Shown here: piece after piece, positions 13,439-38,447 of the stretch | How positions within the stretch are numbered: the stretch's first letter is position 1 | How the letters are laid out: every line of letters begins with the position of its first letter | From: Gracilimonas sp. | GTDB lineage: Bacteria > Bacteroidota > Rhodothermia > Balneolales > Balneolaceae | Direction of reading: 5' to 3' | Length of the DNA stretch: 64,000 nt | Assembly (NCBI RefSeq): GCF_040218225.1 | Contig: NZ_JAVJQO010000006.1 | Location: 124,001-188,000 of the forward strand | The notes under the pieces: generated by a model | Databases searched by the model: none | Told to the model about the DNA's origin: nothing | What the model saw: the letters and a program-made list of their open reading frames with translations, nothing else | Translations under genes and position numbers: made by a program

Positions 13439-13607
13439 TGAGAACAAAAATTTGATGAATATTAATTATTTAAGATAGGACTTTTCGGAACCGGGTGCAT
13501 AATCAGGATAGCCTAAAAAAGGCTTTGATTATTTTTTAGAAATAAAAGTTAAGCTTTCGCTAAAGCCATTAAATTATTGTTATCCCATTCTATAATCATT
13601 AATCAGA

Positions 13608-13646
13608 AGTAATGTGACCGTAAAAATTCGGTAACAGTACTTAAAC
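13608..13646 (+). promoter_or_regulatory. Three GTAA repeats at 11-bp spacing upstream of the 5'-nucleotidase
   Basis: AGTAAT (13608-13613), CGTAAA (13619-13624) and GGTAAC (13630-13635) are separated by exactly 5 bp each. A weaker TTAAAC at 13641 continues the series. The hexamer pattern and the 11-bp period match the array upstream of the TonB receptor, where the order GGTAAT, GGTAAA, GATAAC recurs. OmpR/PhoB-type response regulators bind such phased direct repeats. The protein involved is not known. Confidence 0.5.
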
Positions 13647-13648
13647 AA

Positions 13649-13688
13649 TTTGTCGGTTCATAAAACCTTACACTTATTAACCGACAAA
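13649..13688 (+). promoter_or_regulatory. 10-bp perfect inverted repeat next to the 5'-nucleotidase start
   Basis: TTTGTCGGTT (13649-13658) and AACCGACAAA (13679-13688) are perfectly complementary across a 20-base loop and end three bases before the ATG at 13692. In mRNA the hairpin would cover the ribosome-binding region. In DNA it could be an operator downstream of the phased repeats. It contains no coding sequence in the preferred gene model. Confidence 0.5.
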
Positions 13689-16600: not shown

Positions 16601-17912
16601 GTTACTGGCAAACGAGGGTGACCTTATGGTGCCCGGCGATGAAGTGGCCAACGCCTTTGGACCTTATCCTTTGCTGTACAAAAATGCCGACGATATCGAT
16701 GTTCCTGTTGTAACTACAACCGGTAACTATAAGTACATCGGTAAGCTTTCCCTTGAATTTGATATCGACGGTAACTTAATCTCTGTTCTTAATGATAAAT
16801 CTGGCCCGGTTCGTGTTTCTGGTGTTGGAGATGATGCTGTAGCCGAAAATGCAGTTGTTAAAACCTCAGCTGTAGATCCGGTTATTGCAGGCCTGGAAGC
16901 ACTGGATCAAAATATAATCGGAACATCAGCAGTTGTCTTGAATGGGGTTCGCGGAGATGTCCGAACGAAGGAAACTAACCTGGGGAACCTTATTGCAGAT
17001 GCCCTTTTATGGCAGGCAAAAGAGCTGGCAAGTACATTTGCTGTTGCCGTTCCTGATGTAGCCCTGCAAAATGGGGGTGGAATTCGTAACGACTCACAAA
17101 TTCCAGCTGGAAATATCAGTGAGCTAACTACTTTCGATATCCTTCCATTCTCCAACTTTACCTCAGTAGTACCAAATATTTCTGCGTCGCAGTTTAAGGA
17201 GATTATGGAGAATGCGGTTTCAAGAGTAGAAAACGTAGACGGTCGTTTTGCCCAGATTGCTGGCTTCACTTTTGAGTATGATCCACAAGGAACTGCTCAA
17301 ATCCTAGATGCTGATGCAAATGTAACCACTGCAGGCTCCCGTATAATAACTCTTACCCTCGATGACGGAACCGAAATAGTTTCTGAAGGCGAAGTAGTGA
17401 GCGGAGCGCCTGCTGTTAGCATTGCCACCATCAACTTTTCTGCATCCGGTGGTGATCAATATCCATTCCGTGGTGCAGCTTATACTACACTTGGTGTAAC
17501 TTACCAGCAAACTCTTGCAAATTTTATAACATCTTCAGGAGCACTAAATGGTACAATTACCTCCGAAGATTACCCGGTTGGCGGGGAAGACAGAATCACG
17601 GTCTTTGAAGAGATGGAGACTTCCAATGAGCCAAATGCCGGAATTCCTGAGAGGTTTGCACTCAAACAAAACTATCCTAACCCTTTTAATCCAACGACTC
17701 AAATTGCGTTTGACCTGCCGGAAACTGCAGAAGTTCGTTTGAGCGTATTTGATATGCTGGGAAGGAAAGTAACAGATTTAGTAAACGAGAGAATGTCTGC
17801 CGGTACTCATTCTGTACAATTTGACGCTTCTGCACTTTCAAGTGGCATGTATATCTACCGTATTGAAGCCGGAAGCTTTTCCAAAACCCAAAAAATGATG
17901 CTTATCAAATAG
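13692..17912 (+). CDS. Giant secreted choice-of-anchor-I / lamin-tail / 5'-nucleotidase with T9SS sorting domain
   Basis: A 1406-residue exported multidomain enzyme. A signal peptide (ending GSVLAQQ) leads into a beta-propeller of the choice-of-anchor-I type (about 25-545), then a lamin-tail domain (FSEYGEGSSNNKYLEIYNP, about 560-670). A metallophosphatase domain follows, with ILHNNDGES (Asp750) and GNHDFDFG (His837, Asp838). The 5'-nucleotidase C-terminal domain contains NLGNLIADALLW and NGGGIRNDS (about 1090-1300), and a T9SS sorting domain ends the protein. It should strip phosphate from extracellular nucleotides at the cell surface. In classical enzymes the first metal motif is NDxH; here Glu752 takes the His position. 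The ATG at 13692 is chosen over a TTG at 13650. It is likely functionally paired with the divergent nuclease gene. Confidence 0.92.
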   Translation: MKTNTIRLALLAFSLLFSGSVLAQQSSFDLTLLGTYKTGIFDEGAAEISAYDPGSKRLFFTNADANTIVILDLSDPSNPAEVSTIDLDTYGGGVNSVDVYNGIVAVAVEADPKTDPGAVVFFDKDGTFISSVQVGALPDMLTFTPDGSKVVVANEGEPSDDYTIDPEGSISIIDVSGDLSAVSATEVTTADFTSYNAQKATLIADGVRIFGPNASVAQDIEPEYITVSEDGSMAYATLQENNAIAVINLTTGVIDDIYALGYIDHSLTGNELDASDDDDKINIQNWPVRGLFMPDAIASFEVGGTTYLVTANEGDAREYEYENSFGNDTLAYAEEARVEDIELDPSIFTNAAELQNDTTLGRLNITTALADTNANGQYQTLYSFGTRSFTIWNAGDGSRVFDSGSQFEMKLAELIPDNFNSDNTENGSFDSRSDAKGPEPEAVTIATYAGKIYAMIGLERVGGIMVYDVTDPMNPEYVTYSTSRDFSIATFTEDDIEELDDLNDNAGIAAILSSVVESGPESITFIKQGASTSAKPLFVVSNEITGTITVYEADIASDAAPLFFSEYGEGSSNNKYLEIYNPTEQIVSLSEYAFPNGNNTVDIPGSFEFWNYFPEGAEIAPGDVYVIAHPSADAKILAEADFTWQYLSNGDDGYALVYGNEDNYQILDIIGELGEDPGSGWDVAGVSNGTQDHVLVRKEAVVNGNPAPLGSFGTDADNSEWVVLENENWKSLGKRELNPTFSLTILHNNDGESQLINAGSGDLANYGGVARFKTLADQLKAEAVAEGRGVIMLTSGDNFLPGPEFNVGQENVENGGDYYDAIALNAIGYDAFAIGNHDFDFGPDVLEEFISQLGENAPFISANLDFSGEAGLQAQFDNGLIAKSTILYTNGDSVGIVGATTPSLPFISSPRNVEVSSAVADSVQKQVDLLTAKGINKIILISHLQSIKEDSALAAELSDVDVMIAGGGDELLANEGDLMVPGDEVANAFGPYPLLYKNADDIDVPVVTTTGNYKYIGKLSLEFDIDGNLISVLNDKSGPVRVSGVGDDAVAENAVVKTSAVDPVIAGLEALDQNIIGTSAVVLNGVRGDVRTKETNLGNLIADALLWQAKELASTFAVAVPDVALQNGGGIRNDSQIPAGNISELTTFDILPFSNFTSVVPNISASQFKEIMENAVSRVENVDGRFAQIAGFTFEYDPQGTAQILDADANVTTAGSRIITLTLDDGTEIVSEGEVVSGAPAVSIATINFSASGGDQYPFRGAAYTTLGVTYQQTLANFITSSGALNGTITSEDYPVGGEDRITVFEEMETSNEPNAGIPERFALKQNYPNPFNPTTQIAFDLPETAEVRLSVFDMLGRKVTDLVNERMSAGTHSVQFDASALSSGMYIYRIEAGSFSKTQKMMLIK

Positions 17913-22554: not shown

Positions 22555-25545
22555 TTATAAGCCTGTTTTTTCTTTTTTGAATGTTATTTTGAAGAGAGAG
22601 CCATTCTCTGAAATTGTTTCCAGAGTCCCTTCAAGTTGAGACACCAAGGTTTGAACCAAGGTGAGACCAAGAGAACCTGTTTCCATAGGATCTTCTTCAG
22701 GCATACCAATGCCATCATCCTGGATAACAAATTCGATTTCATCATTTTCCTTTTGCTTGAACTTTATACAGATATTCCCCTGCTCCTTTCCCTTAAAAGC
22801 ATGTTCAAATGCATTACTAACCAACTCATTCATTATCAGACCGCAGGGAATACTTTGATCCAGATTCAGCTCCAGGTCGTCCACTTCGGTATGTACAGAG
22901 ATATCTTTGTTTTCAAAATTGTAGGAAGAGGCAATGATTCGGGTTAAATCAGTGACATATTTTTCAAAGTCAATTTTAGCAAGGGTATCGTTTTGATATA
23001 ATTTTTCATGAATCAGGGCGATACTTTGAACCCGCATCTGGGCTTCAAGAAGAACCTGGGAGGATTTATCGTCATCTATTTGTCCACGTTGTAATTCCAT
23101 TAAACCTGAGATAACAGCCAGATTATTTTTGATCCTGTGATGAACCTCTTGTATCAATATTTCTTTTTCTTTGAGTGTGGCCCGAAGATACTCTGTTCGG
23201 TGATCCACCATTTTTTTCAACTTCTCTTTTTCAAGCCACTGAAGCCGTAATCGTTCTCCGCCATACACCAATCCCAAAAAACCTGCCACCATTAATCCAA
23301 AAAACCAATATGAATTCCAAAATGGTGTATCAATAACAAATGGGAATGAAGCAGTTTCATTAGTCCATAGTCCTTTTTGGTTCTGCGCCTTTACTTGAAA
23401 TATGTACTTCCCGGGTTTTAAATTCTGAAAGCTGACACTGTTTAGCTTGGTAGGTTCTGACCAGTTGTTATCGAGGTTTTCAATTTTATACTTATAAGTA
23501 AGTTCCTCAGGCGAAGAATAATCTAAACCCTCATAGTAAAATGTGAGATTATTCTCTTCTTTTTTAAACCTTTCAACCGGACCATTCCTGATTTCATCAT
23601 CAAGCTTAATAGTAGCGCTCAATTGATTCGATTTGTCTCTAAGGAAATCTACGCGGATATCAGTAATTATAATTCTCGGGCCTTTTGAAACTGTCTCCTC
23701 AAATTGATTCGAATAAGAAAATACTCCCTGATCAGATCCAAACCAGATAGTCCCCAAATTTTCAGCTACAGCATGGTGATTTGTTTTCATACTACGTATA
23801 TCATTTTGATAGGCAATATGGACCATCGAGCTAAGTTTGTTATTCCTGAAACTTAACTTATGGAGCCCTGATGAAGTGGCGTGCCAAAGGGTACTATCCG
23901 TAAGTAATAAAGACTGGGTGTCCACAGTCTGAAGACCTGATCTGTTATCAAACACATCCGTTTCTCCAGTTTTTGGGTCAACTCTTATGATCCCTTCAAT
24001 TGTCCCCAGCCAGTATTGGTTCTGTTCATCTGCAATTACATACCTGACTTGAGTTTGGAAATCTGGTGCATAAAGGATCTCAGGAGTTACAACTTCCCTG
24101 TCCCGGAGTACAGAAAGTCCCTGATCAGTTGCTACCAGTATTTGCCCATTTTTATCCTGATTAATATGTAGAACATAACTGCCGGTAAGCCCGGAATCTA
24201 TGGTAATAATCTTATACTCATTATCTTTTATGGTGATAAGACCATTTGGTGTACCCGCATAAATCGTTGAATCCTCGCCTATAAAAGTGTCTGTTATATC
24301 CTGACCATAAGAATTAAAGTCTAAAAGCTGTAGTTTTTCAAAAGGAGAATAGCGATACAACTTTCCGGATTCTGAGAGAAGTAATAAATCTCCATTTGGG
24401 AAAGCTTCAATATCATCAATCTTTATATTCACTTCTGTGGATAAAACAGAAAACAAAGAAACCGAGTCGTCTTTTATAGCTGACAAGCCCTTATCCGTTC
24501 CAAACCAGACCATTGGAGAATTTGGATCACTAAAAACTGAATGCACTATATTGGAAGGAAGGAAAGTCCTTTTATCATACCTGATTAACGGAGGATTTCG
24601 TACAAGGTCTACGCCACTATCTTCAGTAAGCACCCAGTACCGTTGCTCCTGATCAAGAAATACACCTTTAATTTTATTATCACTCAGGTTGTTTTCCGAT
24701 CCTAACCTTATGGCAGTTTTCCTGTCATAGAAATACAATTCATCAGAGTTGTTCAGAACCAAAAGATTGCCAAGCTCTGTCTCATTTATACTAATTATTG
24801 TTCCTAAACCCTCGCCAAAAAGATCTTCTGTTCTTTCTATTTCAGACCCAGCAGGTTTAAATATGCCTTTATCAGAAATGACCCAAGCTGAATTATTGGC
24901 CGAGGGGCTTACCTGAAAAAAATTGTGCCCCGAAAAACCATCAACTTCCTTGACCAAGGTTCCATCATCCGGGTTTAATATCCGGATACCCTGGTTGCTA
25001 AAAACCCATAATCCGAATTCATTTTGCCATATAGCTGTAATTGGTGATGGTTGTTCATTAGAAAAAGGGAAATGCTGTGTGAGCTGTACCTGACCTTTCT
25101 TAAAAAGTCCATTCTTCTCAGTTCCAATCCAGAGATCTGAATTCTCTGACTCAAAAATAGATGCCACCCTGAAACCTTCTCTCGCCAGGGTATCGAACGG
25201 ATACGTGACCGTAGTTCCAGAAACTTTTGCCAATCCACCTGTCTTTGTAGCAACCCATAGTGATTCATCCAGATCTTCATGAATATGAGTTACCGTATCA
25301 TCTTTAAGACCATTACTTATTGTAATTTGCTCACTGTACCGACCATTGAATTTTACCAGCCCCTCTCCTTCTATACCAAGCCAAATTAATCCATCCTTTG
25401 TTTGATGGATGGTGGTGATATTGTTGCCGGGCAATCCGCTTTTATCGGAATAGTTCTTTACATCCAGCAACTGTGCATGTGCTAAGTTACCGGCTACTGC
25501 AAATAAGAGAAAAAATAGGTACAACTGAATACTTCTTCGACACAT
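22555..25545 (-). CDS. Large two-component sensor: periplasmic Reg_prop propeller, Y_Y_Y, HisKA_2 kinase
   Basis: A 996-residue hybrid-type sensor without a receiver domain. A signal peptide (MCRRSIQLYLFFLLFA) leads to a long periplasmic region of Reg_prop repeats (about 25-650; for example SGLPGNNITTIHQTKDGLIWLG), forming one or two propellers. A Y_Y_Y domain (about 680-740, YKYKIENLDNNW) and one transmembrane helix (about 740-760) follow. The kinase core has a HisKA_2 phospho-acceptor (EVHHRIKNNLAVISG, about 803) and HATPase motifs NELVSNAFEHAF and DDGIGM. No partner regulator is in the window. The start at 25545 lies 4 bp after the PstS-like gene, suggesting that the two proteins work together. 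Confidence 0.92.
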   Translation of the reverse strand: MCRRSIQLYLFFLLFAVAGNLAHAQLLDVKNYSDKSGLPGNNITTIHQTKDGLIWLGIEGEGLVKFNGRYSEQITISNGLKDDTVTHIHEDLDESLWVATKTGGLAKVSGTTVTYPFDTLAREGFRVASIFESENSDLWIGTEKNGLFKKGQVQLTQHFPFSNEQPSPITAIWQNEFGLWVFSNQGIRILNPDDGTLVKEVDGFSGHNFFQVSPSANNSAWVISDKGIFKPAGSEIERTEDLFGEGLGTIISINETELGNLLVLNNSDELYFYDRKTAIRLGSENNLSDNKIKGVFLDQEQRYWVLTEDSGVDLVRNPPLIRYDKRTFLPSNIVHSVFSDPNSPMVWFGTDKGLSAIKDDSVSLFSVLSTEVNIKIDDIEAFPNGDLLLLSESGKLYRYSPFEKLQLLDFNSYGQDITDTFIGEDSTIYAGTPNGLITIKDNEYKIITIDSGLTGSYVLHINQDKNGQILVATDQGLSVLRDREVVTPEILYAPDFQTQVRYVIADEQNQYWLGTIEGIIRVDPKTGETDVFDNRSGLQTVDTQSLLLTDSTLWHATSSGLHKLSFRNNKLSSMVHIAYQNDIRSMKTNHHAVAENLGTIWFGSDQGVFSYSNQFEETVSKGPRIIITDIRVDFLRDKSNQLSATIKLDDEIRNGPVERFKKEENNLTFYYEGLDYSSPEELTYKYKIENLDNNWSEPTKLNSVSFQNLKPGKYIFQVKAQNQKGLWTNETASFPFVIDTPFWNSYWFFGLMVAGFLGLVYGGERLRLQWLEKEKLKKMVDHRTEYLRATLKEKEILIQEVHHRIKNNLAVISGLMELQRGQIDDDKSSQVLLEAQMRVQSIALIHEKLYQNDTLAKIDFEKYVTDLTRIIASSYNFENKDISVHTEVDDLELNLDQSIPCGLIMNELVSNAFEHAFKGKEQGNICIKFKQKENDEIEFVIQDDGIGMPEEDPMETGSLGLTLVQTLVSQLEGTLETISENGSLFKITFKKEKTGL

Positions 25546-25549
25546 AATC

Positions 25550-26494
25550 TCAGTTGTTAGAAAGGTTGGTTTTAATTGAATCGAGCTGAGATAAATATTT
25601 TTGATAAATATTCTCTGAGTGGGGGATATTACCAACATCAGATACTATATTTGAAGCGTGGATAAGATAAAATTCGATGAAGTCTTGAAGTTTTTCATTA
25701 GCTAATGCATTTGTTGAAACGTACATGTAAAGGGTCCTGGAAAGTGGCTGATAAGTGCCATTTTTAACTGAGTTTTCAGTTGGGGTAATAGGACCATCTC
25801 CATTTTCAGGATTTTGATCATCTATAGGTATCAGCTTAAGAGAGAAATAATTTTCCTTATAGTATGCGAACCCAAAAAATCCCAACCCGTATTTATTATC
25901 AGCCACCCCATCCACTAAAAGTATATCGTTTTCGGAGGCGACATAATCCCCCCTGCTTGAGCCGTAATCTAAAATAACCTCTGAAAAGTAGTCGTAGGTC
26001 CCGGAGGCACTGCTGGGGCCAAAAAGCTGAATAGGTTCGTCTGGCCATGAAGACCTTATATCTTTCCAGGTCTTTATTTCTTTTTCGTTTTTAAGACTCC
26101 AGAGCTTTTGTAACTCCTGAACCGTAAAAAAATCAACCCAATAATTTTCTGAGTTAACAACCAATGCAATACCATCTTTGCCGACTTCTATTTCCATAAA
26201 TTCGATGCTATTGTCGGTACAAGATCGAGCTTCCTGTTTCGTGATCTTTCTGGATGCGTTGGCAATTTCTATGATGCCCGCACACAGCTTGTTAAATCCG
26301 CCTGAAGTTCCTGAAATGGTATGAGAAAAGGTCAGTCCATCTTGTTCAACACTAAATTCCTGGATAATCTTTTCAGAAATTGGGTAAACGGTACTGGAAC
26401 CATCAATACTTATGAGAGAAGATTTATTTCGCTGCAAAAAATCGCAGGAGGTAAGAAAAAAGGATAAAAGAACAAACAGAACTGCCCTGATCAT
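25550..26494 (-). CDS. PstS-like phosphate-binding lipoprotein
   Basis: The 314-residue product has a lipoprotein signal (LLSFFLTSC, lipid cysteine near residue 17) and a type II periplasmic-binding fold related to PstS. The N-terminal ligand-loop region is IDGSSTVYPISEKI. SGTSGGFNKLCAG and GPSSASGTYDYFSEV correspond to the phosphate-contacting segments. No pstC, pstA or pstB gene is nearby; instead a sensor-kinase gene follows after 4 bp. It may therefore deliver a ligand to that sensor rather than to a transporter. The ATG at 26494 is preferred over a TTG at 26500. Confidence 0.85.
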   Translation of the reverse strand: MIRAVLFVLLSFFLTSCDFLQRNKSSLISIDGSSTVYPISEKIIQEFSVEQDGLTFSHTISGTSGGFNKLCAGIIEIANASRKITKQEARSCTDNSIEFMEIEVGKDGIALVVNSENYWVDFFTVQELQKLWSLKNEKEIKTWKDIRSSWPDEPIQLFGPSSASGTYDYFSEVILDYGSSRGDYVASENDILLVDGVADNKYGLGFFGFAYYKENYFSLKLIPIDDQNPENGDGPITPTENSVKNGTYQPLSRTLYMYVSTNALANEKLQDFIEFYLIHASNIVSDVGNIPHSENIYQKYLSQLDSIKTNLSNN

Positions 26495-26633
26495 GTACAA
26501 AAATTGAGTGAGAAATTATCCTCTAACATACAATTCACAGTTTAATAAACTATTAAATACTTCACTGAAACTGAGGGGCTATGTAAAGTTTCTGTTAGTT
26601 TTTTGAATTAGTTCGGCTGCTTCGCTGAAATGA

Positions 26634-26675
26634 ATAAAAAAGGCTATAACACCCATAAGCGGAGGCTACCCGCTT
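26634..26675 (-). terminator. Possible terminator of the ars operon
   Basis: AAGCGG (26657-26662) and CCGCTT (26670-26675) can form a short stem just after the acr3 stop at 26686. On the minus strand a six-T run follows about 15 bp later, which is rather far. The remaining DNA up to 26494 shows no other feature. Confidence 0.35.
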
Positions 26676-26685
26676 TACGTCTCGA

Positions 26686-27723
26686 TCAATAAGCCGCTCT
26701 TCTTGCATTAGCAAACCGCACCAGCGATAGCATCACAGGCACTTCAATTAAAACACCAACAACGGTTACTAAAGCTGCACCAGACTGCAGTCCGAATAAA
26801 GCGATAGCCACAGCAACAGCGAGCTCAAAGAAATTACTGGCTCCTATCATAGATCCCGGAGCACAGACCTGATACGGAAGTCCCAGCCATTTTCCGCCAA
26901 ACCACGCAATCCCGAAAATGAAATAGGTTTGAATAATCAGGGGAATGGCAATGAAAATAATATCCAGAGGCTGAGAAATAATACGTTCTCCCTGGTAAGC
27001 AAATAGGAGAATGAGCGTAATCAGCAGTGCTGAGATCGAAACCGGTTTGAATCTGGGTAAAAATTTATGGGTGTACCATTCCTTCCCTTTCTGAGCAATT
27101 ACTACTTTGTGTGTCAGATACCCGGCAACCAACGGAATCACCACAAACACGATAATGGAAGCTGCCAATGTATTCCAGGGAATGGTTATATCAGTGATGC
27201 CTAACAATAATCCTACTATCGGAATGAATAGCACCAGGATCAGCAAATCATTTACAGAAACCTGTACAAGCGTATAGTTTGGATCCCCATCCGATAAGTA
27301 TGACCATACAAAAACCATTGCCGTACAAGGAGCAGCTCCAAGTAAAATAGCACCGGCAATATACTGGTCGGCCAACTCCGGACTCAGCCACGCCGAATAG
27401 AGCTGATCAAAGAAGATCCATGCAAAAAACGCCATCGTGAAAGGTTTTATGGCCCAGTTAATGATAACGGTCCATACCACACCTTTGGGCGATTTTCGGA
27501 TCTCTTTAAGCGATCCGAAATCAACCTGCAGCATCATTGGGTAAATCATCAGCCAAATCAGAATAGCCACGGGAATGTTTACTTTATAGATCTCCCACCG
27601 GCTGATAACCTCTATAGAGTCTCCGGCCAAATATCCAACTCCAATTCCGATTCCAATACATAGCAGTACCCAAACCGTCAGGTACCGCTCGAAAAAGTCC
27701 ATTCTTTTTTGTTTATCCGACAT
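26686..27723 (-). CDS. acr3: Arsenite efflux permease, ACR3 family
   Basis: A 345-residue inner-membrane transporter with ten hydrophobic helices of the BART superfamily. The ACR3 hallmark cysteine is present in LLGAAPCTAMVFVWSYLSDG (about residues 128-147), and the second conserved region is CAPGSMIGASNFFELAVAVAIALFG (about 283-307). It exports arsenite using the proton gradient. It is the last gene of the operon, one base after the preceding DUF6428 stop codon, and a second ArsR-type operator lies before that DUF6428 gene. A potential terminator follows at about 26.66 kb. Confidence 0.96.
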   Translation of the reverse strand: MSDKQKRMDFFERYLTVWVLLCIGIGIGVGYLAGDSIEVISRWEIYKVNIPVAILIWLMIYPMMLQVDFGSLKEIRKSPKGVVWTVIINWAIKPFTMAFFAWIFFDQLYSAWLSPELADQYIAGAILLGAAPCTAMVFVWSYLSDGDPNYTLVQVSVNDLLILVLFIPIVGLLLGITDITIPWNTLAASIIVFVVIPLVAGYLTHKVVIAQKGKEWYTHKFLPRFKPVSISALLITLILLFAYQGERIISQPLDIIFIAIPLIIQTYFIFGIAWFGGKWLGLPYQVCAPGSMIGASNFFELAVAVAIALFGLQSGAALVTVVGVLIEVPVMLSLVRFANARRAAY

Positions 27724-27724
27724 G

Positions 27725-28171
27725 TTAACAACAGGCTCCGGCTTTGGCTGTTCGGGTTAAACTTGGCTTACAAACCGTTGGCTTGACCATTAAATCTATA
27801 ACCAACCTTTCTTGCTGTACAGCAAAATTTTGAATTGAATATCTGCTGGTGGGGTGATCAGAATCACCGAATTCTATGAATAATTCCGCTTCATTTTGAT
27901 ATGACTTCTTTTGCCCAACCAAGTCAATGATTTTAAGTGCTTTATTGGTTGTCCATTCAGCTGTCTTGTAGGAGTTCTCATTCACCCAAAGCTGGATGAC
28001 TGTCTCATTGTATGAATGTTGATTCCCGCCACAATCCACAGAGTCAACAGAATGATGCTGTATCTCAGTGATGTGCAGATCGCCTGAAATAATAGTGTTA
28101 TCCGGAAGGCTGAACTGAAGTTCTTTGCCGGAATTATTAACCAATGTATTTATAAATGTTGAAGTATTCAT
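27725..28171 (-). CDS. DUF6428-like arsenic-operon protein with Cys-Cys tail
   Basis: The 148-residue product belongs to a family of unknown function that I associate with DUF6428, common in Bacteroidota ars operons. It is soluble, with an N-terminal domain containing ISGDLHITEIQHHSVDSVDCGG, rich in histidine and with one cysteine, and an Arg/Lys-rich end finishing AGACC. The terminal cysteine pair recalls the tails of two other proteins of the same operon and might bind As(III). A 16-bp palindrome like the arsR operator lies only 4 bp upstream of its ATG. Confidence 0.78.
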   Translation of the reverse strand: MNTSTFINTLVNNSGKELQFSLPDNTIISGDLHITEIQHHSVDSVDCGGNQHSYNETVIQLWVNENSYKTAEWTTNKALKIIDLVGQKKSYQNEAELFIEFGDSDHPTSRYSIQNFAVQQERLVIDLMVKPTVCKPSLTRTAKAGACC

Positions 28172-28174
28172 TTT

Positions 28175-28190
28175 ATCGTATTTATGCGAT
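28175..28190 (-). promoter_or_regulatory. Second ArsR-type operator inside the ars operon
   Basis: ATCGTATTTATGCGAT is a near-palindrome matching 14 of 16 bases of ATCGTAATTATACGAT upstream of arsR. It lies between arsC and the DUF6428 gene, 4 bp from the latter's start codon. It suggests separate repression of the DUF6428-acr3 pair by ArsR. No obvious promoter elements were found next to it. Confidence 0.6.
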
Positions 28191-28207
28191 TAATTTGGAT
28201 AAATTTT

Positions 28208-28816
28208 TTAGACCTTGCTCACCATATAAAACATCTCTGTTGCAATCTGAAAGCACCGTTCATCATAAGTTTCTTTTTCTGCATTAGTGCCATCAGATTC
28301 TTTTGGATCCCGATAGGTAATGGATATTCTAAATTCAGCTCCGGGCACAAAAGGACAGTTTTCGTCGGCATCAGAGCATGTCATGATAGCAGCAAAAGAT
28401 GTATCAGGATTGAAATCATCATCAAAGGTTTTAGAGAAACAGATAAGCGGCTCGGCTTTTTCGTCAAACTTTACCATATATCTGGGATTTTCGCCGCCGG
28501 AATTTTTCACCATAAATCCGGCTCTTTCAATGGCTGCTACCGCCCTTGAATTGAAAGCTGTGGCTTCAGTTCCACCCGAATAGGTTTGGATGTTTTTGAG
28601 ACCAAGCTGATGGGCTGCAACAGCTGTCCAAATCTGCGCCAAATGACTTCTTCTGCTGTTATGTGTACAAATGAAGTTCAGCTTTACGGGTTGATCTTTC
28701 TCAATCTTTGAACGGATATAATCAGCCAATTTCCCCAGTCTTTCTTTTCTTTCCGGGAGAATGGAATTAAAATCAGACTCCAGATTTTTTGTGTATTTTT
28801 TTAATTCTTTATACAT
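28208..28816 (-). CDS. arsC: Arsenate reductase, low-molecular-weight phosphatase type
   Basis: A 202-residue protein of the LMW tyrosine-phosphatase-like ArsC family. The CX5R loop is Cys50-THNSR-Arg56 in NFICTHNSRRSHLAQ, and an acidic DP pair is at 170-171 (TYRDPKESD). The second cysteine that thioredoxin-linked ArsC enzymes carry inside the loop is Arg55 here. Cys147 and Cys154 in MTCSDADENCPFVPGA probably take part in relay instead. It reduces arsenate to arsenite, which ArsM methylates or Acr3 exports. The gene lies 11 bp after arsM and has an N-terminal helical extension of about 40 residues. Confidence 0.9.
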   Translation of the reverse strand: MYKELKKYTKNLESDFNSILPERKERLGKLADYIRSKIEKDQPVKLNFICTHNSRRSHLAQIWTAVAAHQLGLKNIQTYSGGTEATAFNSRAVAAIERAGFMVKNSGGENPRYMVKFDEKAEPLICFSKTFDDDFNPDTSFAAIMTCSDADENCPFVPGAEFRISITYRDPKESDGTNAEKETYDERCFQIATEMFYMVSKV

Positions 28817-28827
28817 CAGTTCTGTAA

Positions 28828-29733
28828 TTAACAGCAGCCCGAACCGGGTTCACAGGCATTAGCATTGGCATTTCCAAGCATGGTCACCGCTTGCTGTTTA
28901 GTTGATTTATTTTCACCACCCTTTTGAGCGAAAACAGTAATACTGTAAATACCGGTTCCGCCAGAGTTAAATTCGACAATCTCATCTTCACTTAGATACT
29001 GATTCAGAATGTCATCGGGGATCTCAATAGGTTTCTGTTTCTGTATAGTGATATTTTCAAATCCGGCTTCTTTGATGTAGTCCAGATACGTTTCTTTCTG
29101 AATAGCTCCTGCTACACATCCGGCATACATTTCTGCGTCTTCTCTAAGCGCTTCAGGGAGATCTCCTTCCAGCACGATGTCGGAAATGCTGAAATGTCCG
29201 CCAGGTTTAAGTACCCTGTAGATTTCTGAAAATACTTTGGGCTTATTGGGCACCAGGTTTAATACACAGTTACTAACAACCACATCAGCTACGTTATCGG
29301 AAACAGGCATCTCCTCGATATCACCAGAACGAAATTCAACATTATTGAACCCAAGCTTGTCAGCATTTTCACGGGCTTTTTTAATCATCGGTTCCGCAAA
29401 ATCAATTCCCAGAACTTTACCTGTTTCACCGGATTCATGCCGGGCTACAAAGCAATCATTCCCGGCTCCTGAACCCAAATCAATTACATAATCACCTGTC
29501 TGGATTTTTGCGAATTGAGTGGGAAGACCACAACCCAGACCTAAATCCGCCTCGGCGTTATAGCCTTCAAGTTCACTATAATCATCCGTCATGATATTAT
29601 AAACCTTGGTGGATTCTCCTCCAGCTCCACAACAAGATCGGGCATTATAGTCTTTGCCTTGTTCGCTGATCTCAGAATACTTCCTGCGAACGGTTTCTTT
29701 GAGTTCTTCGGGGGATTTTTTTTTGGTTTTCAT
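28828..29733 (-). CDS. arsM: Arsenite S-adenosylmethionine methyltransferase
   Basis: A 301-residue ArsM. SAM motif I is VIDLGSGAGNDCFVA (about 83-97), and GHFSISDIVLEGDLP follows the fold. The four arsenic-related cysteine sites of the family are present: Cys34/Cys35 in ARSCCGAGG, Cys68 in LGLGCGLPTQFA, Cys156 in VVVSNCVLNLVP and Cys206 in MYAGCVAGAI. The tail ends ANACEPGSGCC and adds three cysteines. It converts As(III) to methylated, partly volatile species. The start codon lies one base after the arsR stop codon, so the two genes are probably translationally coupled. Confidence 0.95.
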   Translation of the reverse strand: MKTKKKSPEELKETVRRKYSEISEQGKDYNARSCCGAGGESTKVYNIMTDDYSELEGYNAEADLGLGCGLPTQFAKIQTGDYVIDLGSGAGNDCFVARHESGETGKVLGIDFAEPMIKKARENADKLGFNNVEFRSGDIEEMPVSDNVADVVVSNCVLNLVPNKPKVFSEIYRVLKPGGHFSISDIVLEGDLPEALREDAEMYAGCVAGAIQKETYLDYIKEAGFENITIQKQKPIEIPDDILNQYLSEDEIVEFNSGGTGIYSITVFAQKGGENKSTKQQAVTMLGNANANACEPGSGCC

Positions 29734-29734
29734 A

Positions 29735-30067
29735 TTAGCAGCAGGTTGGCTTTGGTATTGAAATTTCTTCGATCATAACTTCCATCACAGATTTGAATTC
29801 AGCCAAATTATCCTCGTCAAAGCAATAGCAAGTTCTCACCCCTTCGATCTCGCCTTTAATAATTCCGGCCGACTTCAAAGCCTTTAAATGTTGCGAAACA
29901 GTGGATTGCGCAAGTGGTAATTCTTCTGTTATATCTCCACAGTAACAGGCATTCGTTTTAGCCAAGATTTGTAGAATTGCAATCCGTGCCGGGTGAGCAA
30001 TGGCCTTGGCAAACTCAGCTGCTTTGATCTGTTTTTTGTTAAATAATTGTGCTTTTGTTATCGCCAT
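29735..30067 (-). CDS. arsR: Arsenical-resistance repressor ArsR
   Basis: A 110-residue winged-helix repressor with an early helix FAKAIAHPARIAILQIL and a recognition helix LAQSTVSQHLKALKSAGII. Cys41 and Cys43 in NACYCGDI lie in the alpha-3 position of classical As(III) sensors. Further pairs are Cys80/Cys82 in VRTCYCFDE and a terminal Cys109-Cys110. Arsenite binding should release it from its operator. The operator overlaps the transcription start and lies directly next to its ATG. It is the first gene of the five-gene operon. Confidence 0.95.
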   Translation of the reverse strand: MAITKAQLFNKKQIKAAEFAKAIAHPARIAILQILAKTNACYCGDITEELPLAQSTVSQHLKALKSAGIIKGEIEGVRTCYCFDEDNLAEFKSVMEVMIEEISIPKPTCC

Positions 30068-30374: not shown

Positions 30375-33287
30375 TTATTTAATCAATGTCATTTTGCGTG
30401 TTACCGCTACATTTCCGCTGGTTAAGCGATAGATGTACAATCCACTTGAAAGGTTGCTTGCATTGAAGTTTAGCGTGCTCATACCTGAAGAGAACATTTC
30501 CCTGTTGGCAAGCGTAGCCACTTCACGACCCAGCATGTCATACACTTTCAGCGTTACTTGCTGTGCCTGTGGCAGCGTAAAACTAATCTGTGTAGTTGGG
30601 TTAAATGGGTTTGGATAGTTTTGGTTCAGCGTTACTGAATTCGGAACTTCTGAAGGGCTTCCTTCAGTATCAGTAACTAAACCACTACCTAAGAATCCAT
30701 AAGCATCCAAAGCAGTCCAGCCAGCAGCCCAGTTAGAGCCATCAAAAGCACCTGCATAATTTGTTGGATAGAACCAGTCATCTTCCATAGCTACTGCAGT
30801 TCCATAAACAGGGCTATCTGGATTTGGTCGTGGATCTAAACCTGCATCGTCAGTTCGGCTTATCCCTCTAAGCATTGGATCAACAATTGTATTGCTGTTA
30901 GCACTCAGCATTGTTTCTTCGTAACCATTTGTTGCCATGTCAGCAAAAGTAGTACCTGTTCCAAAGCTGAAGAAGATACTGTTAGTGATATTCAATGAAT
31001 CTGCTTCAAGTCGAGCTCTTGAGTCAAAGTCATCTACACCGTCTACATCTTCTACGCGTAGAGCGTTACCCGGGTGATCTGTGAATACTGAGTTTGCATA
31101 TAATGCACCAGTGTTGTCACGGAACTCAAGCATTTGTCCCGGATCGCCGGATGGAGTTGAAGAAACGCCAGGTCCAATGTAAGTAGCATTTGAAATCACT
31201 GGGTATGCAAATGGAGTACCCGTTTCATCGCCACCGGCACCATCCATTTCAGCTGAACGTCCAGCCTGATCGCTATCCTGGATAACAAACCAGAATTGGC
31301 CTTTTCCACGGAATCCCTGATCCCAGTCAAAAGCGTCATCATTGTTAAAAGCAGAAATCAGGTATCTTGTATTTACTGTTCCACCGAACCACTCGTATCC
31401 ATCATCGCCACTGGCAAATGACTCTATATACTCAATAGTAGTTCCGGCGCCAACGCCACCAAGAGTTAAACCTTGAATCTCGTTACCTGAACTTGAACCA
31501 ATATTGATTCCTGAGTGACGGATAGATACATAGCGAAGTACACCAGAATCATCCATGTCATCAGTACCACCATATCCTACTAAGTCAGGATCTGAAGAAA
31601 TCTCATTTACTCCTTCAATAGTAGCTTCTACAGTATTGTTGGTTGAAGCACGGCCAAGAATAACAAGTCCGCCCCACTCTCCAACATCATCTTTGGTTAA
31701 GTTGGCATCATCTTCAGCAGTAAAAATAATAGGATTGCTTGAAGTACCTTCAGCAAAAATTCTAGATCCACGAGTGATTACCAAACCGGAAGCATCCAGA
31801 TCCTGTCCTTCGCCACCACGTACTGTGGTTCCAGCTTCTATGTATAGATCAGCACCATCAGTCACAAACACCATTCCATCCAGAAGATACTCATTGTCAG
31901 CAGTCCAGTAAGTATCTTCAGTAATATTTCCTGATACTGCTTCCATTCCTGGTGTACCTGACTCACTTAAATAGCCATATTGGTCAAGAGCAGTCCATCC
32001 TGCTAACCAGTTATTTCCACCGAAAGCACCTTTAAAAGAAACCTCGCTAAAGAAAGCGTCTTCTGGTATAACAGCACCACTTAAAACCGCGCTATTACCA
32101 GGACGAGGGTCTAAACCAGCATCACCTGTTCGGCTAATTCCGCCTAACTCTGGATCAATAGTAACATTATTGTTAGCTGTAAGCATGGTTGCTTCATAAG
32201 CATTTGTTGCCATGTCAGCTAATGTAGTACCTGTTCCAAAGCTGAAGAAAACACTGTTTGTAATGTTCAATGAATCTGCTTCAAGACGAGCTCTTGAGTC
32301 AAAGTCATCTACACCGTCTACATCTTCTACGCGAAGAGCGTTACCCGGGTGATCTGTGAATACAGAGTTAGCATAAAGCGCACCCGTGTTGTCACGGAAC
32401 TCAAGCATTTGTCCCGGATCGCCGGATGGAGTTGAAGAAACGCCAGGTCCAATGTAAGTAGCATTTGAAATCACTGGGTATGCAAACGGAGTACCTGTTT
32501 CATCGCCACCGGCACCATCCATCTCAGCAGAACGTCCAGCCTGATCGCTATCCTGGATTACAAACCAGAATTGGCCCTTTCCACGGAATCCCTGATCCCA
32601 GTCAAAAGCATCATCATTGTTGAAAGCAGACACTAAATACTTTGTGTTTACAGTTCCACCGAACCACTCATATCCATCATCACCACTGGCAAATGATTCT
32701 ACATATTCAATAGTAGTTCCGGCACCAACGCCACCAAGGGTTAAACCTTGAATTTCGTTACCAGAACTTGAACCAATATTGATTCCTGTGTGACGGATAG
32801 ATACATACCGAAGAATACCGGAATCATCCATGTCATCAGTACCACCATAACCTACAAGTGCTGGATCGCTGGTGATCTCGTTTACCCCTTCGATGGTAGC
32901 TTCAACAACATTGTTAGTTGAAGCGCGACCTAGAATTACCAGTCCGCCCCACTCTCCAACATCATCTTTGGTTAAGTTGGCATCATCTTCAGCAGTAAAG
33001 ATAATGGGATTTTCCGCTGTACCTTCAGCGAATATCTTTGAACCACGGGTAATTACCAAGCCGGATGCATCAAGATCCTGACCTTCACCACCACGAACTG
33101 TGGTCCCTGCTTCAATATACAGATCGGCTCCTCCTGTTACGAAAATCATACCGTCAAGTACGTATTCGTTATCAGAGGTCCACTCTGTATCTTCAGTAAT
33201 GTTTGCACTTACAGTCACAGTAGTTTGCGCCATCGCAAGGAAGGGCAAACTCATCAAGACTGCTATTAGTAGCGTTGCTTTCTTCAT
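30375..33287 (-). CDS. Secreted surface protein with two near-identical ~425-residue modules and T9SS sorting domain
   Basis: The 970-residue product has a signal peptide (LLIAVLMSLPFLAMAQ), two tandem copies of a glycine- and aspartate-rich module (about 25-450 and 450-865), and a T9SS sorting domain with [16 protein letters not shown] and a final KMTLIK. Each module contains VRGGEGQDLDASGLVITRG, TKDDVGEWGGLVILGRAS, ESFASGDDGYEWFGGTVN and FDWDQGFRGKGQFWF, and a right-handed beta-helix is likely. The function is unknown. The gene follows the TonB receptor by 41 bp, so it may be a surface binding or processing partner for the receptor's substrate. The DNA of the two modules is almost identical over long stretches. 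Confidence 0.88.
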   Translation of the reverse strand: MKKATLLIAVLMSLPFLAMAQTTVTVSANITEDTEWTSDNEYVLDGMIFVTGGADLYIEAGTTVRGGEGQDLDASGLVITRGSKIFAEGTAENPIIFTAEDDANLTKDDVGEWGGLVILGRASTNNVVEATIEGVNEITSDPALVGYGGTDDMDDSGILRYVSIRHTGINIGSSSGNEIQGLTLGGVGAGTTIEYVESFASGDDGYEWFGGTVNTKYLVSAFNNDDAFDWDQGFRGKGQFWFVIQDSDQAGRSAEMDGAGGDETGTPFAYPVISNATYIGPGVSSTPSGDPGQMLEFRDNTGALYANSVFTDHPGNALRVEDVDGVDDFDSRARLEADSLNITNSVFFSFGTGTTLADMATNAYEATMLTANNNVTIDPELGGISRTGDAGLDPRPGNSAVLSGAVIPEDAFFSEVSFKGAFGGNNWLAGWTALDQYGYLSESGTPGMEAVSGNITEDTYWTADNEYLLDGMVFVTDGADLYIEAGTTVRGGEGQDLDASGLVITRGSRIFAEGTSSNPIIFTAEDDANLTKDDVGEWGGLVILGRASTNNTVEATIEGVNEISSDPDLVGYGGTDDMDDSGVLRYVSIRHSGINIGSSSGNEIQGLTLGGVGAGTTIEYIESFASGDDGYEWFGGTVNTRYLISAFNNDDAFDWDQGFRGKGQFWFVIQDSDQAGRSAEMDGAGGDETGTPFAYPVISNATYIGPGVSSTPSGDPGQMLEFRDNTGALYANSVFTDHPGNALRVEDVDGVDDFDSRARLEADSLNITNSIFFSFGTGTTFADMATNGYEETMLSANSNTIVDPMLRGISRTDDAGLDPRPNPDSPVYGTAVAMEDDWFYPTNYAGAFDGSNWAAGWTALDAYGFLGSGLVTDTEGSPSEVPNSVTLNQNYPNPFNPTTQISFTLPQAQQVTLKVYDMLGREVATLANREMFSSGMSTLNFNASNLSSGLYIYRLTSGNVAVTRKMTLIK
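30690..33215 (-). repeat. In-frame tandem duplication, period 1275 bp
   Basis: The two halves of the surface-protein gene match at an offset of exactly 1275 bp (425 codons). One example is the run starting at 31111 and its copy at 32386, identical over about 100 bp. Boundaries are approximate and were judged by eye. Divergence is concentrated near the ends of each unit. Confidence 0.85.
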
Positions 33288-33328: not shown

Positions 33329-36196
33329 TTAAATTTTGTATTTGATACCAAGAGAGAAGGTTCTTCCACGCTGATATTTCTGATAAAAATATTCATCACC
33401 TTTAAATTTCTGTGATTGGATAATATCCGGATTCAGGATATTGCTGATCTTAAAACTCAGCTCGAAATTCTCACCAATAGTTTTGTTTGAGGTGAAATTG
33501 AGAGAACCATAACCTCTTTCATATATATCTGGTGTTGCGCCTTCAGTAACGATTCCCAACCGATCTCCAAAGAAATTGTAACTGATTGAAGAATTGAACT
33601 CGATATCAGGATTTGCATACCCTAAATCTAAATTGAAAAGGAAAGGTGACTGACCCTGTAGTTCTCTGGTGTCTTCAGCATCTGGTCGTGCATTGCGAAT
33701 TACCTGTAGCTCAAGCTCAGGAATGTCTACATAAGATCTTACGAGTGTGTAATTGGTTGAAAGTGAAAAGTGACGAAGATCTTCGGTTAAGAATCCTAAA
33801 TTTTTACGTACCTCAAATTCAAGTCCATAAACTCTACCCTCTTCTACATTCTGAATGGAAAGAGCATCATTTCCAATATCAGTTCGAATCACACGCTCGA
33901 GGGGATTTTCAAGCTCTTTGTAAAAACCACTTACAGCCAGAATCTCACCAGGGCCTGTAAATAATTCCCATCTGACATCATAATTGGTAATTAATGTACG
34001 TTTGAGGTTCTCATTACCCTGAAATAGGAGCCCTCCAACAAAGTCGAACGTGATATATGGAGCTAATTCACGGAAAGTAGGTCTGGCTACTGTTTGGGTG
34101 TATGCCGCACGAACATTCATATTCTCTGTAAAGCTGTAGATTGCATTCACAGAGGGCAGGTAATCAGTATTAGATAATGAACCCACTGCTAAAGCAGTAT
34201 CCTGACTGATTACTTCTATATCAGCATTTTCGACACGAACACCACCTATAAGCTTAAACTTATCGGTGACAGGTAGTTCAGTCATCAAATAAGCTGCAGA
34301 AACTGTTCTTGTAGCATCATAATTACTTCTTGGTGTAGATGCATTTTGAACGTAGTTACCAAATTGTGGGCGGCCGTTATTAGCGTAACCTAAAATTCCT
34401 AATGAGTCAAAGAATGCATCAACATCTCCTTCCACATCATTAAGTGTAAAGTTTTGGGTGTCGGTATAGAAGTCAAACCGCTGCTCCCTAAAGTCACGTT
34501 CAACATCAACAAGGTTACCACCAAATTTGATATTACCCGCTACACCATTAAAAGAATTGAACGGGATTGTAACATCAACTCCGGCATTCCGATTATTCTC
34601 TTCCAGATTTCTATAGAAACGTCCTGGACGTTGAAAGTTATTTGTTGGACTGGAATAAAGAATTGCTCCAGAAGCAAAAGTATCTACTTGAGTAGTGAAG
34701 TACCTAAGATCTGGTTCATCTTGAGTATTTGTTGCATTAGCTGCCTTCCACTCAACCGTTGTTTTCAGGAAATTTTCAAAATAACTTTTCCCACTTAGCT
34801 GAAATGAGGTCAAACTACGTTCAGTATATTGTACTACCCTGGTTTGAAAAAGAGCATTAGGGATGTCATACTGAAAGCCTTCGAGATATCTACCTGCTCC
34901 TGTACCACTTTGGGTCTTTAAAAAGCGAGCTGAGAATCTATGATTATCAGTAAGACGATATGAAACCGTTGCCATACCACCCCAGTCTACATTTCTTTCT
35001 CCCTTCACATCATTCACATCCAAACGACGGAACAGCTGCTCTGAATCGTCAAAATTACCTACCAAATCATAGCGGGCAACATCTCCATTGTTATAACCTG
35101 AGTAACCCTGGCTATATGAAAAGCTTGCAGTGTATCCAAGATCATTGCCAAAAAAAGGCACCTGGTTACCAATCGAAAAACCGTAGCTTTGATTCATTAC
35201 ACCATATTGCTCTCTTGGTTGAAATTCATTGTTAAATGAATTTGAAAGGCGGTCTAATGTTTCAGCAGCTTGCTGGTCATCTCTGGTATCCCTTAAAGTC
35301 GGAATCTCTTGTCCGCTTTTTATAAAGTCTTTTACTTCTTTCGGGATTTCTCTCCTCCCTCCATCAAAACCGAATGCATCTGTACTACTCGGATCACCGA
35401 TTCTTAGATCCGTGAAAGTTGCCTGAGTATTATATCCTGTTGAAGCAGATAACTGAAAAGAAAATTGTTCAGGGAAATCTTTAGTTGCTATATCTACCAA
35501 CCCGCCGCTAAAGTTACCTGGTTTGTCAGGGGTAAAGGTTTTGAGAGTTACAATATTCTCTAACAGATTAGCAGGAAAGATATCCATCTGAAAAGATTTC
35601 CTGTTTGGATCTGACGACGGAAGCTCTGAGCCATTTAAATGAGTGCTGGTATACCTGTCACCTAACCCCCGGATAAAGACATACTTACCATCTACTACAG
35701 AAGCACCTACAACTTTTTGAAGTGCCCCGGCCGCATCACCTGCTCCTGAACTCGAAATACTTTCAGCAGAAATAGCATCGCTGAAAGAAATAGATTTTTG
35801 GCGCTGGCGCAGAAGCCCTGCTTCGTTATCAAGGATAGCTTCTGCCGTTATAATAACGTCATCAAGCTCTTCTGTTTCGGGCTGAAGAGTTAGGTCAAGC
35901 CTGGTTGCCTGTCCTGCATTAACCTCAACGCCGGTAATGGTTTGCTTCTGAAAAGAGATATAACTGACTTCAAGAGTATAACTACCTGGACTGAGATTCC
36001 TGATCGTGTACCGACCATCTAGATCGGTAGACGTACCGATGGTAGTTCCTTGAATTACAACATTAACTCCGATTAGAGTTTCGCCGGTCTCGGCATCTAC
36101 AACGGTTCCTGTGACGGAACCTGTTTCTTGCGCTTTTAGATTAACAGAAATAGAAAGCGCAAAACAAACGAGTGCTGATATTATGTGTGTTTTCAC
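33329..36196 (-). CDS. TonB-dependent outer-membrane receptor with carboxypeptidase-regulatory-like domain
   Basis: A 955-residue receptor. A signal peptide is followed by a CarboxypepD_reg-like domain (GSVTGTVVDAETGETLIGVN, about 25-105), a plug domain (about 125-245, with VFIRGLGDRYTSTHLNG) and a long beta-barrel ending in the aromatic-rich strand FSLGIKYKI. Such receptors import bulky ligands powered by TonB-ExbB-ExbD; exbB/exbD genes lie 5 kb away. The substrate is unknown. A five-copy phased repeat and a good -7 box upstream point to activation by an OmpR/PhoB-type regulator, so a phosphorus-containing ligand is a reasonable guess. Confidence 0.94.
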   Translation of the reverse strand: MKTHIISALVCFALSISVNLKAQETGSVTGTVVDAETGETLIGVNVVIQGTTIGTSTDLDGRYTIRNLSPGSYTLEVSYISFQKQTITGVEVNAGQATRLDLTLQPETEELDDVIITAEAILDNEAGLLRQRQKSISFSDAISAESISSSGAGDAAGALQKVVGASVVDGKYVFIRGLGDRYTSTHLNGSELPSSDPNRKSFQMDIFPANLLENIVTLKTFTPDKPGNFSGGLVDIATKDFPEQFSFQLSASTGYNTQATFTDLRIGDPSSTDAFGFDGGRREIPKEVKDFIKSGQEIPTLRDTRDDQQAAETLDRLSNSFNNEFQPREQYGVMNQSYGFSIGNQVPFFGNDLGYTASFSYSQGYSGYNNGDVARYDLVGNFDDSEQLFRRLDVNDVKGERNVDWGGMATVSYRLTDNHRFSARFLKTQSGTGAGRYLEGFQYDIPNALFQTRVVQYTERSLTSFQLSGKSYFENFLKTTVEWKAANATNTQDEPDLRYFTTQVDTFASGAILYSSPTNNFQRPGRFYRNLEENNRNAGVDVTIPFNSFNGVAGNIKFGGNLVDVERDFREQRFDFYTDTQNFTLNDVEGDVDAFFDSLGILGYANNGRPQFGNYVQNASTPRSNYDATRTVSAAYLMTELPVTDKFKLIGGVRVENADIEVISQDTALAVGSLSNTDYLPSVNAIYSFTENMNVRAAYTQTVARPTFRELAPYITFDFVGGLLFQGNENLKRTLITNYDVRWELFTGPGEILAVSGFYKELENPLERVIRTDIGNDALSIQNVEEGRVYGLEFEVRKNLGFLTEDLRHFSLSTNYTLVRSYVDIPELELQVIRNARPDAEDTRELQGQSPFLFNLDLGYANPDIEFNSSISYNFFGDRLGIVTEGATPDIYERGYGSLNFTSNKTIGENFELSFKISNILNPDIIQSQKFKGDEYFYQKYQRGRTFSLGIKYKI

Positions 36197-36237: not shown

Positions 36238-36316
36238 CAAAACTAAACCTCAGCCTTTGCGCTACTGTTAACCAGCAGTTATCCTTTCTTTACCTGTAGA
36301 TTACCTCAATGTTAAT
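36238..36316 (-). promoter_or_regulatory. Promoter with five direct repeats at exact 11-bp spacing
   Basis: Read on the plus strand, the hexamers GTTAAC (36267), GTTATC (36278), TTTACC (36289), ATTACC (36300) and GTTAAT (36311) follow each other at exactly 11 bp. Downstream in the transcribed (minus) direction, TAGTTTTG (36245-36238) is a perfect -7 box of the TAnnTTTG type, placing the nearest repeat over the -33 region. The architecture is that of Pho-box arrays bound head-to-tail by OmpR/PhoB-family activators. The regulator is not identified. Confidence 0.65.
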
Positions 36317-36326
36317 AGCCGAAATC

Positions 36327-38447
36327 TCAGGCCTTTGATTCTTCACTCTCTTCTTTATCTGAAGAATCTTCTGTTTTATTATCTATATCTTTTTCTTCAA
36401 CCTGAGCGTCTTCAGACTCTATTACTTCAGCGTCGTCTACTTCAGATTTTTCTTCTTTATCCTTTTGAACTCCATTTTTCTTGGAATCAGAAGATTGTTC
36501 GAAAATTCCAGCCGGATATTTTCCGTGCGGGCGATCACCTAATAATTCGCGAAGGGCATGGTGATCCAATACTTCTCTTTCGAGTAATGCCTCAGCTAGT
36601 TTCTCAAGTTCATCTTTATGCTTTTTGAGCAATTCGATGGTACGATCATGATTCAAATCAATAATCTTACGAACCTCTTTATCGATCTGCTCACTGGTTT
36701 TCTCAGAGTACTTTTTGTTAAAGCCATAGCTGTTCTCAGGATTTTGAGAATCCTTCAAAGAGATATATCCCAGCTCTTCGCTCATTCCGTATTCAGCAAC
36801 CATAGCAAATGCCATGGTCGTAATGCGCTCAAGATCATTTTGGGCTCCCGTTGAAATTCGGCCAAAGATAATCTCTTCTGCCACACGACCACCAAGAAGA
36901 GCACAAATCTTGTCATTAAGCTCTTCTGTTGTCATCAGGAAGCGTTCTTCCAGTGGAGTTTGCAAAGTGTAGCCCAATGCTGCCAGTCCACGTGGCACAA
37001 TACTCACCTTAAGTACAGGATCGGTATGCTCCAGAAACCAGCCTACAATAGCATGACCGGCCTCGTGGTAAGCCACAATCTTCCGCTCATCAGGACTAAT
37101 GAGTTTATTCTTACGCTCTAGTCCTGCAATTACCTTCTCAATAGAATCCTGAAAGTCTTCCATCTCGATACTGTTCTTCTCTCGGCGGGCGGCCAACAAT
37201 GCAGCTTCATTACAAAGATTGGCAAGATCAGCACCAGCAAATCCCGGTGTTTGAGACGCCAATACACGGAGATCGATATTATCTGATAGCTTTAACTTTT
37301 TGGTGTGAACCCTCAGAATTTCGACACGACCGTTAAGATCTGGCTTGTCAATCATAATCTGACGATCAAAACGTCCGGGTCTTAGCAGAGCTGAATCCAG
37401 AATATCAGGACGGTTGGTAGCTGCCATCAGGATTACTCCTTTGTCGGAGTTAAACCCATCCATTTCACTCAACAACTGGTTCAGAGTGTTTTCTCGCTCG
37501 TCGTTAGATCCCATAGCCATTCCACGTCCACGGGTACGACCAATAGAATCAATCTCATCAATAAAAATAATACACGGAGCTTTTTCTTTGGCTTGTTTGA
37601 ACAGATCACGAACACGTGCTGCACCAACACCAACAAACATCTCCACAAAGTCAGAACCACTTAAGCTGAAGAACGGCACACTGGCTTCGCCCGCTGTTGC
37701 CTTGGCAAGCAATGTTTTTCCAGTTCCCGGAGGGCCTACCAATAAAACACCTTTTGGCAGAACGCCACCAAGCTTAGTAAATTTCTGTGGATTTTTAAGA
37801 AACTCCACAACTTCTTCTACCTCAGCCTTAGCTTCCTGCAGACCGGCTACATCTTCAAATGTAACTTTAGTTTCTTTCTGCTGGTCATAAAGTGAGGCCT
37901 TATTCTTACCAATATTCAGAACTTGCTGACCCGGATTCATTTTTCTGAAAATGAAAATCCAGATTACTATTAACAGAGCAATTGGAATCAGCCATACAAA
38001 AATTCCGCTAAACCAGTCTTCTTCAATTCTAACGTCGTACTCCACGGCGTTGGCATCCAGTACCGGACGAATTTCATCGCCACGAAGCATGGTGGTTCTG
38101 AATTTTTTAAAATCCTCAACACCTTCAGTCGAAAATGGCAGGTTGTTACTGTCACCTTGTTCCGGTCTGTTGATTATTCCATCAGAAATGGCTTTATCAG
38201 AATAAACCCCGGTTACATCCACTCCATTGGTTATGGTTATTTCACTGACATATCCGTTTTCTACGTGTTCAAGAAACTTACTGTACTTAATTCTGTTTCC
38301 TGTATCAGGAGAAAAGAAAAGAACCTGGGCAAGTAGAAGTACAAAGAATAATACAAATATACTCCAGGTAGGAAATTTAGGTGAGTTACCACCTTTTTTA
38401 CCATCTGGCTTAACTGATTTTTTTTGATTTTGTTTTTTCTGCGCCAT
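36327..38447 (-). CDS. ftsH: ATP-dependent zinc metalloprotease FtsH
   Basis: A 706-residue membrane-anchored AAA+ protease. Two N-terminal helices (about 25-45 and 150-170) flank a periplasmic domain. Then come Walker A GPPGTGKT (238-245), Walker B IIFIDEID, the SRH arginines ([10 protein letters not shown]), and the zinc site HEAGH (461-465) of the M41 peptidase domain. It removes damaged or unassembled membrane proteins. The last 70 residues are strongly acidic and low-complexity (Glu/Asp/Ser/Lys), longer than in most homologues. About 130 bp separates it from the TonB receptor gene. Confidence 0.98.

Follow-up and report, generated by a model that had tools for sequence, protein, structure and literature searches.

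What kind of control element was formed by five short direct repeats, spaced at exactly 11 bp, in front of a gene for a TonB-dependent receptor (TBDT), and to which signal would the receptor then respond? We addressed this question in a stretch of 64,000 nucleotides from a Gracilimonas species of the Balneolaceae, here called the window. Its own genome (G000) was a 3.54 Mb draft in 11 contigs, 98.6% complete.

Repeat units and promoter box

The five TTA cores started at positions 36268, 36279, 36290, 36301 and 36312 of the + strand, precisely where a preliminary description of this DNA had placed them. They filled part of the 130-bp gap between ftsH and the TBDT gene. On the - strand, which codes for the receptor, the sequence from 36315 down to 36261 read TTAACATTGAG GTAATCTACAG GTAAAGAAAGG ATAACTGCTGG TTAACAGTAGC and was followed by 15 bp and then TAGTTTTG. 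The features of the locus were as follows.

36327-38447, - strand: ftsH; the array begins 11 bp past its stop codon
36305-36315, - strand: unit 1, TTAACATTGAG, the promoter-distal end; conserved in orthologues
36294-36304, - strand: unit 2, GTAATCTACAG; conserved in orthologues
36283-36293, - strand: unit 3, GTAAAGAAAGG; conserved in orthologues
36272-36282, - strand: unit 4, ATAACTGCTGG; conserved in orthologues
36261-36271, - strand: unit 5, TTAACAGTAGC; covers the expected -33 region and starts 26 bp upstream of the -7 box
36238-36245, - strand: -7 box, TAGTTTTG, a perfect TAnnTTTG; its distance is kept in most readable orthologues
33329-36196, - strand: TonB-dependent receptor of 955 aa with CarboxypepD_reg, Plug and beta-barrel domains (Pfam); the gene presumably controlled
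30375-33287, - strand: secreted protein of 970 aa carrying a T9SS tail and a pair of near-identical ~430-aa domains

TAnnTTTG is the -7 box of sigma-A promoters, at -12 to -5 (PMC9723704). The preliminary description had noted a perfect box of this type with the nearest repeat over the -33 region, and this geometry held, with the box at 36245-36238 and unit 5 starting 26 bp before it.

Since TAA is a common trinucleotide, a single genome would leave some doubt whether such a five-fold repeat had only arisen by chance or from the composition of AT-rich intergenic DNA. However, in 2000 dinucleotide shuffles the 130-bp gap never showed five in-register copies of one trinucleotide, whichever spacing from 7 to 16 bp was considered. 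In the whole window, such five-fold cases occurred once at 11 bp and twice at 15 bp. We also built a motif profile from TBDT promoters alone (n=16, the window site included). The five-unit score of the array was 37.9, as against 19.7 for the best site in 3.54 Mb of simulated DNA, a value that was partly circular because the array belonged to the training set. With the array far above simulated DNA and conserved in more than a dozen orthologues, chance was refuted as an explanation and its probability was practically nil.

It was also conceivable that the element worked at the RNA level, e.g., within the ftsH 3' end or as an attenuator, since only 11 bp separated it from the ftsH stop codon and the two genes ran in the same direction. 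Against this, the array lay upstream of a -7 box at a fixed distance, and a like array preceded pstS and other genes that had unrelated upstream neighbours. An action on RNA was therefore very improbable.

Conservation at receptor and phosphate-transport promoters

Matches to the TBDT at E<=1e-100 were present in 59 of the 92 family genomes, some of them more distant paralogues, and upstream regions were read for 30 of these 59. A contig scan for the TBDT yielded a single relative, at 78%, in the Balneolaceae MAG CP030887.1. The 16 training promoters carried the unit (T/G/A)TAACA-N5 on the coding strand, usually in 5-7 copies, some of these counts including a weak unit adjacent to the box. Within the unit, position 1 was free, TAA was nearly invariant, and C and A were then preferred. 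The preliminary description had instead proposed nTTAnC-N5 on the + strand, which was the wrong strand and consensus; the coding-strand motif was preferred because it explained the orthologues better. A + strand profile of three TTANC units gave three perfect matches in the own genome and, with one mismatch allowed, rose only modestly above its control. A three-unit KTWAC pattern with one mismatch performed no better than its control, and thus short or loose patterns alone were uninformative.

When the TBDT promoters were anchored on the -7 box, conservation followed an 11-bp period, with rises in phase with the units and lower values in the spacers. Close relatives thus kept the phasing, as would be expected if the preliminary description had recognised a genuine tandem site. 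In most TBDT orthologues with a readable box, the last unit started 26 bp before TAnnTTTG, and both the phasing and this spacing persisted in orthologues of 46-100% identity. Even two paralogues of ~35% identity (L095 and L096) had three units at the 26-bp distance.

A PstB protein above the curated cut-off was found in 25 of the 92 family genomes. None was found in G000 or in most close relatives, and a free-standing PhoU was likewise not found in the 98.6% complete draft of G000. The pst loci of the other relatives were unseen by the TBDT-trained profile. In four genomes (G026, G030, G091 and G037), the only three-unit match in ~10 kb of each locus was situated 45-66 bp upstream of pstS, while the pstS promoters of genus g3 showed two units, TTAACATTGAG TTAACAAAAG and variants. 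With this profile, the 17 regions upstream of pstS outscored 43 other upstream regions of the same loci (Mann-Whitney p=3.9e-9), with one of the 17 in the background range and some genus g3 promoters having only two units. Mean profile score plotted against spacing peaked sharply at 11 bp in both the TBDT and the pstS sets, and several pstS promoters had the TAnnTTTG box likewise at 26 bp. Arrays were also present upstream of a second kind of pst locus that occurred in some genomes (L196, L197 and L204).

Further arrays and the candidate regulator

A pattern of two units in the 26-bp geometry with TAnnTTTG had two perfect matches in the 3.54 Mb of G000, namely the window TBDT and a site just upstream of a Na+/Pi cotransporter gene on contig C2, whose product has a PhoU domain. 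This match was consistent but not fully independent because the pattern was composed after that promoter had been seen; the pstS test was independent. Relatives from genus g2 had three units upstream of the Na+/Pi cotransporter (Pfam). Moreover, a three-unit array preceded an operon of a metallophosphoesterase and a glycosyltransferase in G000 (C6:464190) and in three relatives. Judged by resemblance, on which the PlcP assignment depends, this operon was similar to the PlcP and glycosyltransferase genes of lipid remodelling, which are induced by phosphorus deficiency (PMC4796936; PMC8115612). The preliminary description had proposed a genome scan to see whether profile hits precede phosphate genes, and such hits were present at pstS in relatives, at the Na+/Pi cotransporter in G000 and genus g2, and at the PlcP-like operons.

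The window itself contained a second site of this kind.

13598-13652, + strand: weaker second array, GTAATGTGACC GTAAAAATTCG GTAACAGTACT, with a weak unit on either flank
13692-17912, + strand: secreted protein with choice-of-anchor I, UshA-like 5'-nucleotidase and LTD domains and a T9SS tail

The four-unit score of this array was 23.5, higher than that of any site in the 3.54 Mb of simulated DNA. No orthologue of the protein was found within the genus. The nucleotidase gene was probably a second Pho-controlled gene of the window. Between the two arrays, the region 22555-30067 encoded a binding protein of the PstS family (25550-26500), which scored above the TIGR02136 cut-off, adjoining a two-component-propeller histidine kinase, as well as arsenic-type genes (SBF transporter, ArsR-like protein, methyltransferase). 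The PstB search found no Pst permease in G000 to accompany this binding protein.

Two other receptor genes of G000 were associated with related sequences. A one-mismatch match to the two-unit pattern (L220:1124-1167, C6:1124-1167) was located ~50 bp before a 755-aa TonB-dependent receptor, which was a possible second Pho-controlled receptor. A reverse-oriented three-unit array (L068:6724-6756, contig C8) lay upstream of an 888-aa TBDT.

Full-length OmpR-type regulators numbered five in G000. The most PhoB-like of them, C4:470699, had a PhoR/PnpS-like kinase gene next to it. It scored below the NCBIfam PhoB cut-offs (233 vs 296; 214 vs 270), although just 2 of the 14 control genomes had a protein above the TIGR02154 cut-off. 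Among its same-family relatives with known structure were regX3, MtrA and PhoP. The protein was 81% and 66% identical to the regulators directly beside pst-phoU in G069 and G072, respectively, while the other four OmpR-type regulators had at most 39% identity to them. By these protein comparisons, C4:470699 is the orthologue of the pst-phoU-linked regulators.

The array might instead be bound by another OmpR/PhoB-family protein, e.g., a WalR/YycF-like regulator, that likewise uses 11-bp tandem sites but controls envelope rather than phosphate genes. Such a regulator could be sought among the five of G000; C4:470699 itself also matched YycF with 209 bits, and the adjacent kinase also scored to WalK. 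In addition, arrays stood before genes that are not known Pho genes. A six-copy 11-bp TTAAC(A) array (L003:1501-1560, C6:556149-556209) preceded the gene for a secreted protein of 133 aa, and similar proteins and arrays recurred in many family genomes. This array broke the 26-bp rule; it may overlap the core promoter and could then act differently, e.g., in repression. Three 11-bp TAACA units (L064:8853-8885, C7:22352-22384) were located between prmC-like and dnaA-like genes, in G021 and G028 too. Thus, some arrays of this type were unexplained. Nevertheless, the motif marked pstS, Na+/Pi cotransporter and PlcP-like operons, and the PhoB-like regulator was orthologous to pst-phoU-linked ones, both of which argued against a WalR/YycF-like regulator and made it an improbable reader of the receptor array.

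Probable Pho control and known systems

Since the same units stood at an equal promoter distance before phosphate-transport genes in relatives, the array was very probably a Pho control site. We infer with high confidence from these comparisons that it is a five-unit Pho box controlling the TBDT, presumably through a phosphate response and PhoB binding. A Pho box comprises at least two head-to-tail 11-bp units, and here there were five at exactly 11 bp; the proximal unit should cover the -35/-33 region, as it did in the predicted promoter geometry with 26 bp to TAnnTTTG; and the motif preceded phosphate-acquisition genes of the clade (pstS, the Na+/Pi cotransporter and the PlcP-like operon). 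The unit itself, (T/G/A)TAACA, differed from the CTGTCAT consensus of the E. coli type. The assignment to a PhoB/PhoP/OmpR-type tandem site in the preliminary description was thus supported by the phasing, by the arrays at these phosphate genes and by the orthologue of the pst-phoU-linked regulator.

Under low phosphate, the PhoR-like kinase adjoining C4:470699 would phosphorylate the PhoB-like regulator, and dimers of the phosphorylated protein would bind the tandem units cooperatively, by analogy with PhoB (PMC4415409). With TAnnTTTG at -12 to -5, the predicted transcription start was at ~36233 and unit 5 would extend from ~-38 to -28, so that dimers bound over -33 could contact and recruit RNA polymerase. 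Five units would leave room for two or more dimers and might give a strong or sensitive induction. The gene for the 970-aa protein started 41 bp downstream of the TBDT gene, an order also kept in L039, and the two were likely co-transcribed. The receptor and its T9SS partner would then be switched on together and may take up a scavenged, phosphorus-containing ligand through the outer membrane. A beta-helix fold for the repeated domain of the partner was not supported by a model from a 4-sequence alignment (mean pLDDT 29).

More tentatively, the lineage might possess a Pho regulon without the PstSCAB-PhoU sensor. In this scenario, which we regard as possible but doubtful, PhoB/PhoR control would be kept, the Pho-boxed Na+/Pi cotransporter with its PhoU domain would serve as both transporter and signalling brake, and the TBDT with its T9SS-secreted partner would be the main outer-membrane output.

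The array was very probably a known kind of control site, a TTAACA-type Pho box array, although we found no published Pho-box motif for Bacteroidota or Balneolaceae, including that of this clade, in the open-access literature. The comparison provided an explicit Pho-box grammar for Balneolaceae, (T/G/A)TAACA every 11 bp with the last unit 26 bp before TAnnTTTG, which would allow sequence-based prediction of phosphate regulons in uncultured members. It also linked an uncharacterised receptor/secreted-protein pair to phosphorus scavenging, and it raised the question of phosphate sensing in species for which the searches found neither the Pst transporter nor a free-standing PhoU.

The PhoP box of Bacillus subtilis has a TTAACA-type unit with an 11-bp period, like the array described here. 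It belongs to another phylum; here, the promoters have the -7 box TAnnTTTG of a different sigma factor, and the unit has no fixed first base.

The E. coli Pho box, bound by PhoB, likewise consists of tandem head-to-tail 11-bp units by the core promoter, before pst and other phosphate genes (PMC4415409). Its unit is CTGTCAT, whereas the units found here were (T/G/A)TAACA in up to seven copies beside the Bacteroidota-type TAnnTTTG. Within the Bacteroidota, the pst operon of Bacteroides fragilis is controlled by PhoB (PMC3547664), and the plant-associated Bacteroidetes of another study were without Pst (PMC8115612). In that study, the phoBR operon of Flavobacterium johnsoniae included the TBDT Fjoh_0545 and the secreted lipoprotein FII, Fjoh_0546, both of which showed strong induction on Pi depletion; PlcP was also induced (PMC8115612). 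As in the window, a receptor with CarboxypepD_reg and Plug domains stood beside a secreted protein, under phosphate control that was observed there and is predicted here. The window pair differed in lying away from phoBR and in the T9SS tail of its partner; FII is pectin-lyase-like.
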